Assembly: GCA_016213735.1 (NCBI GenBank)
Contig: JACQZU010000017.1
Location: 124,001 to 188,000, forward strand
Source: Acidobacteriota bacterium
GTDB taxonomy: Bacteria; Acidobacteriota; Holophagae; Holophagales; Holophagaceae
DNA length: 64,000 bases
Direction: 5' to 3'
Under the pieces are notes generated by a model. The model was not told the DNA's origin, did not search any database, and saw only the letters and a list, made by a program, of their open reading frames with translations. Both the position numbers and the translations under genes were made by a program. Below, in pieces: positions 9,497-12,251 of the stretch; the first letter of the stretch is position 1, and every line of letters starts with the position of its first letter.

Positions 9497-9520
9497 ATGG
9501 GCGCCCTTCGGGGCGCCCAT
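9497..9520 (+). terminator. Hairpin with UUCG tetraloop after atpE
   Basis: A perfect 10-bp stem ATGGGCGCCC/GGGCGCCCAT closes a cTTCGg loop, an unusually stable RNA hairpin, 20 bp after the atpE stop. Only a short T-containing tail follows, so it may terminate or protect the 3' end of the nuo-atp transcript. Confidence 0.7.
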
Positions 9521-9563
9521 TATCATGTCATCCAGTTCCAGGACGATAGGATGGGGAACGGTC

Positions 9564-10739
9564 ATGTACCTCGAACACCCCTTTTCCCTGCCTCCTGAGA
9601 TCCCCCGGGTGATCCTCGGAGGGGATTCGGCCATTGATCTCGAAGGGCTGCACCTGGGGACGGAGGAGGAGGCCAGGACCTTCGCCCTCCACTACGGCTA
9701 CGACATGGATTCCCCGCCCCAGCGGCTCCAGGTGGTCCAGGGATTCGAGGAGGCCCTCGCCTTTCTGGAAGAGGTGATCCTGGAAGGCACGGGGATGGAC
9801 ATCCCCGAGGACATCTCGGGGCTGCGGGACCCCCTGCAACTGCTCCTGTGGGCCTCGGAACGGCCCCGGAGCCTCCGGTCCCGGTGGGCCTGCGCCGTGC
9901 TCCGCATCATGCACACGCTCTTCCACATCGGCCACAACTTCATCCTCCGCTTCCTGCCCGAGATCCAGGCCCAGGTCTTTTCCGCCTACGATCGCCACCT
10001 GGTGCAGCGCGAGGACGGGAGTTGGCTGCTCCGGGGACGCTACGAGGTCCCGCTGGTGGCGGTGGAGCGCAAGCAGAAGAAGGATCGCCTCTCCATCCTG
10101 CTCAAGCTGCTCCACAAGCCGGAGAACGTCGCCGAGACGATCTACGACCAGGTGGGGATCCGCTTCGTCGCCGAGGACCGGGTTGGGGTCCTCGAGGTGT
10201 TGCGTTTCCTCGTGGACCACCACGTCACCATGGCTGCCCACGTCAAACCCTCCCGGGCACGGAACCTGGTTTTCGACCTCCAGACCCTCAGCGCCTGGGC
10301 CGAGGAACTGCCGGGGGATTTCCAGCCGGCCCACCTGGACGCCGAGGAGCGGGCCGCCCTCGGGCGCCATCTGGCCCTGGAATCCCCCCGGCGTGAAGAT
10401 AACCCCTTTTCCAGCAAGGATTATTCCGCGGTCCAATTTACGGCCAGAACTCTGATCCGGCTGCCCAATCCCGCCGCCCGGACCTTGGAACGGCTACAAT
10501 CGGACTTTGCAGCCATCGGCAAACCTGAACTGGCGGACCTCCTCCACATTCCAGAGTTGATCCAATCCCAGGACGAGTTTACTTTCTTCTTCGCGCACGA
10601 AGTTCAAGTCATGGAAAAGGCCGGGTTCCTGAACGCCCGCGAGGGTCCCGCCTCCCACCAGGAGTACAAGCTACGGAAACGTGAGGCGGCCAGGAAACGA
10701 GTTTTGCAGGGCATCTTGAGGGAGGAAGTACCATGCTGA
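9564..10739 (+). CDS. Uncharacterised protein with RelA/SpoT-like synthetase landmarks
   Basis: I do not recognise a characterised homologue with certainty; the 391-residue product may belong to an unnamed conserved family seen in myxobacteria (TIGR04552/04562-like, from memory, unchecked). Residues 168-369 follow the order of the RelA/SpoT nucleotidyltransferase fold: a basic ERKQKKDRLS segment (169-177), YDQVGIRFVAED with Asp195 where RelA has its Mg-binding Asp, SSKDYSAVQF with Tyr287 where RelA has NGYQSIH, AHEVQVM with Glu346 and Gln348 where RelA has EIQIR, then GPASHQEYK like AAHWxYK. No HD hydrolase, TGS or ACT domain is present. The start at 9564 (MYLEHPF) is preferred to 9525, which lies in the atpE hairpin tail. 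The stop overlaps the next gene. Confidence 0.55.
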   Translation: MYLEHPFSLPPEIPRVILGGDSAIDLEGLHLGTEEEARTFALHYGYDMDSPPQRLQVVQGFEEALAFLEEVILEGTGMDIPEDISGLRDPLQLLLWASERPRSLRSRWACAVLRIMHTLFHIGHNFILRFLPEIQAQVFSAYDRHLVQREDGSWLLRGRYEVPLVAVERKQKKDRLSILLKLLHKPENVAETIYDQVGIRFVAEDRVGVLEVLRFLVDHHVTMAAHVKPSRARNLVFDLQTLSAWAEELPGDFQPAHLDAEERAALGRHLALESPRREDNPFSSKDYSAVQFTARTLIRLPNPAARTLERLQSDFAAIGKPELADLLHIPELIQSQDEFTFFFAHEVQVMEKAGFLNAREGPASHQEYKLRKREAARKRVLQGILREEVPC

Positions 10740-11071
10740 ACATCCAGACCCGCCAGGAGGGCAGCGCTGCGGTGGTGACCATCCAGGGGAAGGTCAATTT
10801 CGAGGTCACGGCCCAGTTGCGGGACGTGATCCGGGATACCGTGGCCCAGGAGCAGCCCAAGCTCCTGGTCATCAACCTCGAAGGGGTCAGCTTCATCGAC
10901 TCCTCGGGCCTGGGGCTCCTGGTGGCGGCCCGCAACAGCGTGGACAAGAACAATGGCAAGCTCCACCTCTGTTCCCTCCCCGTCCAGGTGAAGAAAACCT
11001 TCGACCAGACCAACCTGACCAACTACTTCTCCATCTTCGCCACCGAGCAGGACGCCCTGCGCGGGGCTTGA
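10733..11071 (+). CDS. STAS-domain anti-sigma factor antagonist
   Basis: The 112-residue single STAS domain resembles SpoIIAA/RsbV. The phosphorylatable serine region FIDSSGLGLL places Ser57/Ser58 at the usual position. Such proteins bind an anti-sigma kinase when dephosphorylated and release the sigma factor. Its ATG lies seven bases inside the end of the preceding gene, with GAGGAAG as ribosome site, so translation of the two is probably coupled. The next gene is a PP2C-type phosphatase that could dephosphorylate it. No anti-sigma kinase gene lies in the window. Confidence 0.93.
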   Translation: MLNIQTRQEGSAAVVTIQGKVNFEVTAQLRDVIRDTVAQEQPKLLVINLEGVSFIDSSGLGLLVAARNSVDKNNGKLHLCSLPVQVKKTFDQTNLTNYFSIFATEQDALRGA

Positions 11072-11084
11072 GGCGACCCCAGCC

Positions 11085-12251
11085 GTGAACAAGGGGGTGG
11101 TCCTTGTCGTGGACGACGAACCCCCCATCCGGGACATCCTGAGCTTCTACCTGAAGCGCGCGGGTTACCAGGTCCTGCTGGCGGAAGATGGCCGGAAAGG
11201 TCTTGAGGCCATGGCCAAGCTGCAGCCGGACCTGATCCTCTCTGACCTTCGAATGCCCGAGATGGCCGGGGACGAATTCTGCAAGACGGTGAAGGGAGAC
11301 CCCGCCACCCGGGACATCTACTTCATCTTGGTCTCGGCCCTGGACGGGGCCGTCTCCAGGATCGGCGGGCTCGCCTTGGGTGCGGACGACATGATCGCCA
11401 AGCCCTTCCACGCCCAGGAAGTGATGGCCAAGGTGGAATCCGCCTTCCGCATCATCGAGATGCAGAAGGAAATCAAGCGACAGAACCAGGAGCTCACCCG
11501 GTTCCAGGAGAAGGTGAAAGGCGAACTGGAACTCGCCGCCAAGTTCCAGATGGGCCTCCTGCCCGAGATCCCAGGGCGGGCCAACGGGATCCGCTACACC
11601 CACCGCTACCTTCCTGCGGAAGGAATCGGCGGGGACATCTACACCATCCTTCCCACCCAGGACGGGGGCGCCGCCGTTCTGGTGGCGGATGTCAGCGGGC
11701 ATGGGGTGACCGCCGCCCTCATCAGCGCCATGGTGAAGACGAGTTTCGAGGCCCAGGTCCGACTCGGAGGCGGGCCCATGGACTGGGCCCGTGAGATGAA
11801 CCGCCACCTGTGCGCCAGCACCCTGAGCGAGCAGTTCGCCACGGCCTTCCTGGCCTGCATCGAGCCTGGCCGCCCCGAAATCCGCTACGTGATCGCGGGG
11901 CATCCGGCGCCCTTCCGGCTCCACCGGGGCGCCGCCGGAGGCCTGCACCGCCCGGAGCAGCTGGGCGGGAGGGGATTCATGCTCGGGATCGATGCCACCC
12001 TCCCCTTCGAGGAGCATCGGGCCCCCCTCCTCCCGGGGGACCGCCTCCTCCTTTTCACCGACGGCCTCGTGGAGGTGGAGCGGGAAGACCGTCGCCTGCT
12101 GGGGGAAGACGGCCTGATGCGCCTTTCCGCGGAACTCCCGGCGGACGGGGACCTGGCCGCGGACCAGCTCGTGGGCCAGACCCGAAGCTTCAACCATCCG
12201 GTGGAATTCACCGACGACGTCACCCTGGTGGTGATCGACCGGGTGGACTGA
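11085..12251 (+). CDS. Response regulator with PP2C (RsbU/SpoIIE-type) phosphatase output
   Basis: Residues about 4-120 are a receiver domain with the acidic pair Asp10-Asp11, phospho-acceptor Asp54 (LILSDLRMPEM) and Lys in ADDMIAKPF. A short coiled segment rich in Glu/Lys/Gln (about 128-150) leads to a SpoIIE-type PP2C domain with GGDIY and VADVSGHGV metal-binding motifs and DGLVE near the end. It likely dephosphorylates a phospho-STAS protein, most obviously the product of the gene 13 bp upstream. The start is GTG. This is a phosphorylation-controlled partner-switching module. Confidence 0.93.
   Translation: MNKGVVLVVDDEPPIRDILSFYLKRAGYQVLLAEDGRKGLEAMAKLQPDLILSDLRMPEMAGDEFCKTVKGDPATRDIYFILVSALDGAVSRIGGLALGADDMIAKPFHAQEVMAKVESAFRIIEMQKEIKRQNQELTRFQEKVKGELELAAKFQMGLLPEIPGRANGIRYTHRYLPAEGIGGDIYTILPTQDGGAAVLVADVSGHGVTAALISAMVKTSFEAQVRLGGGPMDWAREMNRHLCASTLSEQFATAFLACIEPGRPEIRYVIAGHPAPFRLHRGAAGGLHRPEQLGGRGFMLGIDATLPFEEHRAPLLPGDRLLLFTDGLVEVEREDRRLLGEDGLMRLSAELPADGDLAADQLVGQTRSFNHPVEFTDDVTLVVIDRVD

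Follow-up and report, generated by a model that had tools for sequence, protein, structure and literature searches.

A RelA/SpoT-fold candidate pyrophosphotransferase gene adjoining STAS and response regulator-PP2C genes in Holophagaceae

A gene encoding a protein of 391 amino acids (gene 1; positions 9564 to 10739, forward strand) was found in the window, the 64,000-nucleotide stretch of DNA analyzed here, upstream of genes for a STAS anti-sigma-factor-antagonist-type protein of 112 amino acids (10733 to 11071, forward strand) and for a response regulator-phosphatase of 388 amino acids, RR-PP2C (11085 to 12251, forward strand, GTG start). The mechanical open reading frame of gene 1 begins earlier, at 9525. 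The start of the STAS gene overlaps the end of gene 1 by 7 bp (ATGCTGA), and the RR-PP2C gene begins 13 bp past the STAS stop codon; the coordinates, overlap, and spacing given in an earlier note on this DNA were all correct. The STAS protein matches TIGR00377 and PF01740. Its phosphosite motif, DSSG, is the same in the window and in the sequences of the window's family (here, the first family) that were listed, and the phosphorylatable serine is present. RR-PP2C joins a PF00072 receiver to a PF07228 SpoIIE-type PP2C phosphatase domain (E value, 2e-41) with invariant Asp/Gly positions.

Gene 1 encodes a full-length member of TIGR04562 (E value, 2.9e-115; 385.3 bits against a curated cutoff of 140) and TIGR04552 (E value, 8.3e-108; 360.8 bits against 125), both of which are NCBIfam families without an assigned function. 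A full-text literature search returned no paper naming TIGR04562 and one paper for TIGR04552, which names such a gene in evolved Bdellovibrio: DOE51_RS08710 of Bdellovibrio sp. NC01, in which a small indel arose in long coculture with one prey strain (PMC9888234). The Pfam RelA_SpoT model (PF04607) matches the window protein below threshold (E value, 0.098; 13.4 bits). It is the commonest Pfam match among family members (23 of 30), the best of which reaches an E value of 2e-5 and 25.3 bits, just below the gathering score of 27 bits; since all members fall under that score, gene 1 is not filed as a curated RelA_SpoT member. In the reverse search, the TIGR family models matched canonical Rel open reading frames at E values of about 1e-4 in three other acidobacterial genomes, and when the profile of the gene 1 family was compared with that of 45 Rel synthetase domains, the score was 27.6, the maximum in 60 column shuffles being 23.1. 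A profile search of PDB sequences gave nothing relevant. A distant homology of the gene 1 family to RelA_SpoT is nevertheless supported.

The AlphaFold2 model of the gene 1 protein (pLDDT, 82.6; pTM, 0.73) strongly supports a predicted RelA/SpoT synthetase fold. The leading Foldseek matches in the PDB were RelA/SpoT synthetases or SAS proteins, with probabilities mostly of 0.9 to 1.0 and E values of 2e-3 or weaker. In VIA comparisons, the model aligned with Bacillus subtilis Rel at a Z score of 13.4 (135 residues, 2.8 Å) and with SAS1 and SAS2 at 12.3 each, the Rel and SAS structures together spanning Z scores of about 11 to 13, and the first other fold, pol lambda, followed at 7.8. A viral structure library gave only weak matches, some annotated as RelA/SpoT and others unrelated. 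The earlier note had proposed this fold from the order of its landmarks; the model and the Pfam matches of divergent members bear it out, and the leading structural matches are Rel and SAS proteins rather than unrelated folds.

The synthetase-fold domain (residues 120 to 374; 9921 to 10685, forward strand) follows a helical N-terminal domain (residues about 20 to 119; 9621 to 9920, forward strand) in which D25, Y44, G45, W108, C110, and H117 are invariant and for which the PDB gave no clear known fold (best VIA Z score, 3.7). A family-specific helical insertion (residues about 235 to 279; 10266 to 10400, forward strand), placed by motif comparison with the Rel of the same genome, precedes the G-loop-like segment. 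In a 30-sequence alignment reaching down to 31% identity, K170, K173, S177, K181, Y194, D195, R200, Q291, E346, and Q348 are invariant, as are S364, H365, Y368, and K369 of the C-terminal GPASHQEYK motif; conservation of Y287 is 90% or higher. The residues singled out earlier (D195, Y287, E346/Q348, and GPASHQEYK) are therefore real landmarks of the family.

The putative catalytic set of the domain comprises K173, S177, K181, D195, R200, Y287, Q291, E346, and Q348, with roles assigned by comparison with FaRel2 (PMC11782079) and SaEAS/Apk1 (PMC12691689). In FaRel2, R64, K66, S70, K74, and R77 hold the ATP phosphates and D90 holds Mg2+, and the site also includes R95, Y128, and E145 (PMC11782079). 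The spacing of K173-S177-K181 is that of FaRel2 K66/S70/K74 and the spacing of D195-R200 that of D90/R95, the active-site equivalences of gene 1 resting on such motif spacing. Gene 1 resembles the RelA/SpoT superfamily (Rel, RelA, SAS1/RelQ, and SAS2/RelP; PF04607) in predicted fold and motif order and shares its invariant donor-site residues, Asp, Tyr, and Glu-x-Gln. It differs in falling below the Pfam cutoff, in having no matched HD, TGS, or ACT family, as the earlier note had also claimed, and in its own helical N-terminal domain and insertion of about 45 residues. Furthermore, its G-loop reads Y-x-x-x-Q, with Q291 invariant, and not Y-x-x-x-H as in canonical (p)ppGpp synthetases (the Rel of the same genome carries NGYQSIH), and the canonical R-x-K pair is shifted to K-x-x-K. 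The ATP-contact set of SaEAS, an exported alarmone synthetase, is listed as R, K, N, E, and Q (PMC12691689). Given this contact set, the His-to-Gln change, and the K-x-x-K motif, acceptor and product are not readable from the sequence; the candidate products include (p)ppGpp, (p)ppApp, and pApp as well as RNA with a modified end. One RelA_SpoT-domain gene exceeds the Pfam cutoff in the window's genome; it encodes a long canonical Rel, so gene 1 is not the only candidate synthetase of this genome. The gene 1 protein is predicted to be catalytically active, with good though not full confidence.

Of the 77 first-family genomes, 65 carry a member of TIGR04562/TIGR04552, as do five genomes from a second family in the same class; the 397-genome set of relatives otherwise contained only three weak matches, all of them Rel. 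A scan of genome contigs found five loci, all in Holophagaceae or acidobacterial MAGs. The order gene 1-STAS-RR-PP2C is kept at every first-family locus examined, and the 7-bp overlap is near universal there. In the five second-family genomes the gene 1-STAS pair is kept, but RR-PP2C is not adjacent; thus, at all gene 1 loci examined from the two families, the STAS gene lies directly 3' of gene 1. Among the acidobacterial genomes surveyed, the linkage with STAS and RR-PP2C is conserved rather than rare. The phosphosite of the second-family STAS proteins (L093 to L097) varies among DSS, DAS, DAA, and GPS.

The three genes had been described as one coupled unit, which holds for gene order in the first family but not as an obligate association. 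Six genomes of group g9 (loci L204 to L206 and L210 among them) and genome G055 have lost gene 1, with STAS and RR-PP2C still side by side (91 to 94% and 69 to 72% identical, respectively). At the five gene-1-less loci read in detail, the pair stands just after atpE, its usual place. In the atpE-STAS gap of G055 (L207), the 3' part of gene 1 survives as a remnant that can still be read in frame, and the other losses left weaker traces. A third family has STAS-RR-PP2C at 36 to 42% identity without gene 1; where its STAS protein has a TGL motif, most STAS proteins linked to gene 1 have TNL. Because STAS-RR-PP2C occurs without gene 1 in g9, G055, and the third family, the pair has other work, and the STAS protein, present in all arrangements, is the shared node.

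Within gene 1 lies the sequence TTGATC-N17-TACTTT (10557 to 10585, forward strand), which is constrained at the DNA level. In a comparison of 57 first-family genes, mutually related and hence not independent, L332 is encoded by TTG in 96% and F339 by TTT in 98% of those in which the residue is present, compared with about 6.5% TTG among Leu codons and about 22% TTT among Phe codons elsewhere than the 3' end of gene 1. Some gene-1-less loci (L207, L210, and L204) retain a similar site. A sigma-70 consensus scan of the region reported no promoter, this sequence included, so the candidate promoter rests on codon constraint and on retention in gene-1-less loci. The simplest reading is that it may be a promoter for STAS-RR-PP2C, from which the pair could be expressed alone.

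The genes atpB-atpE lie upstream of gene 1 at most first-family loci whose flank reaches that far. A 10-bp G+C-rich hairpin with a TTCG loop (9497 to 9520, forward strand) stands between atpE and gene 1; the window copy has no T run, most relatives have hairpin and T run here, and 19 of 25 relatives have at least five consecutive T residues in the gap. A functional ATP-synthase linkage of gene 1 was set aside because, in most relatives, a hairpin with a T run separates the two genes. The main rival to a functional link with the switch genes is that gene 1 encodes a RelA/SpoT-fold pyrophosphotransferase with no functional tie to STAS-RR-PP2C, the gene order behind the ATP synthase genes being simply inherited as synteny. 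The persistence of STAS-RR-PP2C after loss of gene 1 and the internal motif, as a possible separate promoter, are consistent with this, as is the retention of atpB-atpE beside gene 1, with a terminator-like hairpin between them, which extends even to a genome of the second family (L094). However, atpB-atpE is absent from the fetched stretch in the other four of the five second-family genomes, where STAS still directly follows gene 1, and nearly all first-family loci have the 7-bp stop/start overlap. We therefore consider mere synteny unlikely, although it is the strongest of the alternatives.

HATPase_c_2 matches above the cutoff number five in the window's genome, and one of them is an orphan RsbW-like kinase gene (L211, 5816 to 6331; G000:C7:425815-426330). 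None lies on the window's contig, no linked RsbW-type kinase was found, and no sigma factor was seen at the locus. A separate STAS-kinase-PP2C-like cluster is located near G000:C7:222-224.5 kb. In Pseudomonas, HsbA binds the diguanylate cyclase HsbD depending on HsbA phosphorylation (PMC5085249), and SiaC, under the kinase SiaB and the PP2C phosphatase SiaA, controls SiaD (PMC7647112).

We propose, with a probability of about 0.5, that a partner switch of kinase, RR-PP2C, and STAS protein controls the gene 1 pyrophosphotransferase. The proposal builds on the predicted fold, the conserved active-site residues, the conserved gene order, and the STAS protein as shared node, all of which were computed. 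ATP would be bound in the donor site via K173, S177, K181, and E346, with Mg2+ held by D195, and pyrophosphate would be transferred from ATP to an acceptor positioned by Y287 and Q291. By analogy with the Pseudomonas systems, the phosphorylation state of the STAS protein would be set by the unlinked RsbW-like serine kinase and the adjoining RR-PP2C, and the STAS protein would set the activity of the enzyme, such that a two-component signal at the receiver would lead to an altered nucleotide (or nucleotide-modified) product. The odds that the STAS protein regulates the enzyme directly are roughly even. Points against the model are the modest Foldseek E values, the G-loop Gln, the K-x-x-K motif, STAS-RR-PP2C without gene 1, the candidate internal promoter, and, in the second family, the varying phosphosite and the lack of an adjoining RR-PP2C.

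The earlier note had favored the opposite direction, in which the enzyme feeds the switch: the nucleotide product would lie upstream and alter the STAS/kinase/phosphatase switch and hence a sigma factor. The gene order fits this equally well, and sigma-factor stress signaling is the classical output of partner switching. Nevertheless, the locus has no linked sigma factor or kinase, an input is already available through the receiver domain, and the precedents found run from STAS-type proteins to nucleotide enzymes, namely, diguanylate cyclases (PMC5085249, PMC7647112), which makes this direction improbable.

The toxSAS and (p)ppApp synthetases (FaRel2, CapRel, Tas1/Apk1, and SaEAS) have the same fold as the gene 1 model (Z scores, 6 to 9), and FaRel2 has the same K/S/K and D/R spacing, but gene 1 scores lower against them than against Rel and SAS. 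The shared fold, the toxin-then-antitoxin order with overlap, and the loss of gene 1 with its neighbor kept, which is allowed for a toxin, would suit a toxSAS-like toxin with the STAS protein as its antitoxin. Against this, gene 1 is single-copy in nearly all carrier genomes and keeps one constant chromosomal position, being present in 65 of the 77 first-family genomes, a distribution like that of a chromosomal core gene; PADLOC and PHROGs gave nothing useful for gene 1, with no PADLOC match and no antitoxin or defense match; tblastn against plasmids and a scan of viral contigs found no relatives; and STAS is a signaling fold, not a known antitoxin. A toxin is therefore highly improbable. Least probable of all is a catalytically dead or repurposed fold that only binds a ligand and signals through STAS binding, as the G-loop His-to-Gln change, shifted basic motif, and large insertion might suggest, because the residues of the donor site, those for Mg2+, and those contacting adenine do not vary even in sequences of 31% identity.

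Control of the gene 1 enzyme by the partner switch has its closest parallels in HsbR-HsbA-HsbD and SiaABC-SiaD of Pseudomonas aeruginosa, which likewise place a PP2C phosphatase and a STAS-type switch near a nucleotide-messenger enzyme. Their messenger enzyme is a diguanylate cyclase, whereas that of the window locus has the predicted RelA/SpoT fold, and the kinase is not linked here. The combination of a RelA-like enzyme with a STAS switch is not described in the literature searched. Tentatively, this could be the first described RelA/SpoT-fold pyrophosphotransferase with activity under the control of a STAS partner switch, so that a two-component input would lead directly to an alarmone-type product unlike that of the canonical Rel of the same genome.

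The analysis provides a family without an assigned function with an enzymatic identity that can be tested, and it adds a previously unrecognized branch to the RelA/SpoT fold. The natural losses of gene 1 with STAS-RR-PP2C intact offer ready comparisons. Partner switching acts on sigma factors and diguanylate cyclases; the gene 1 locus suggests that alarmone-type enzymes may also be among its targets.
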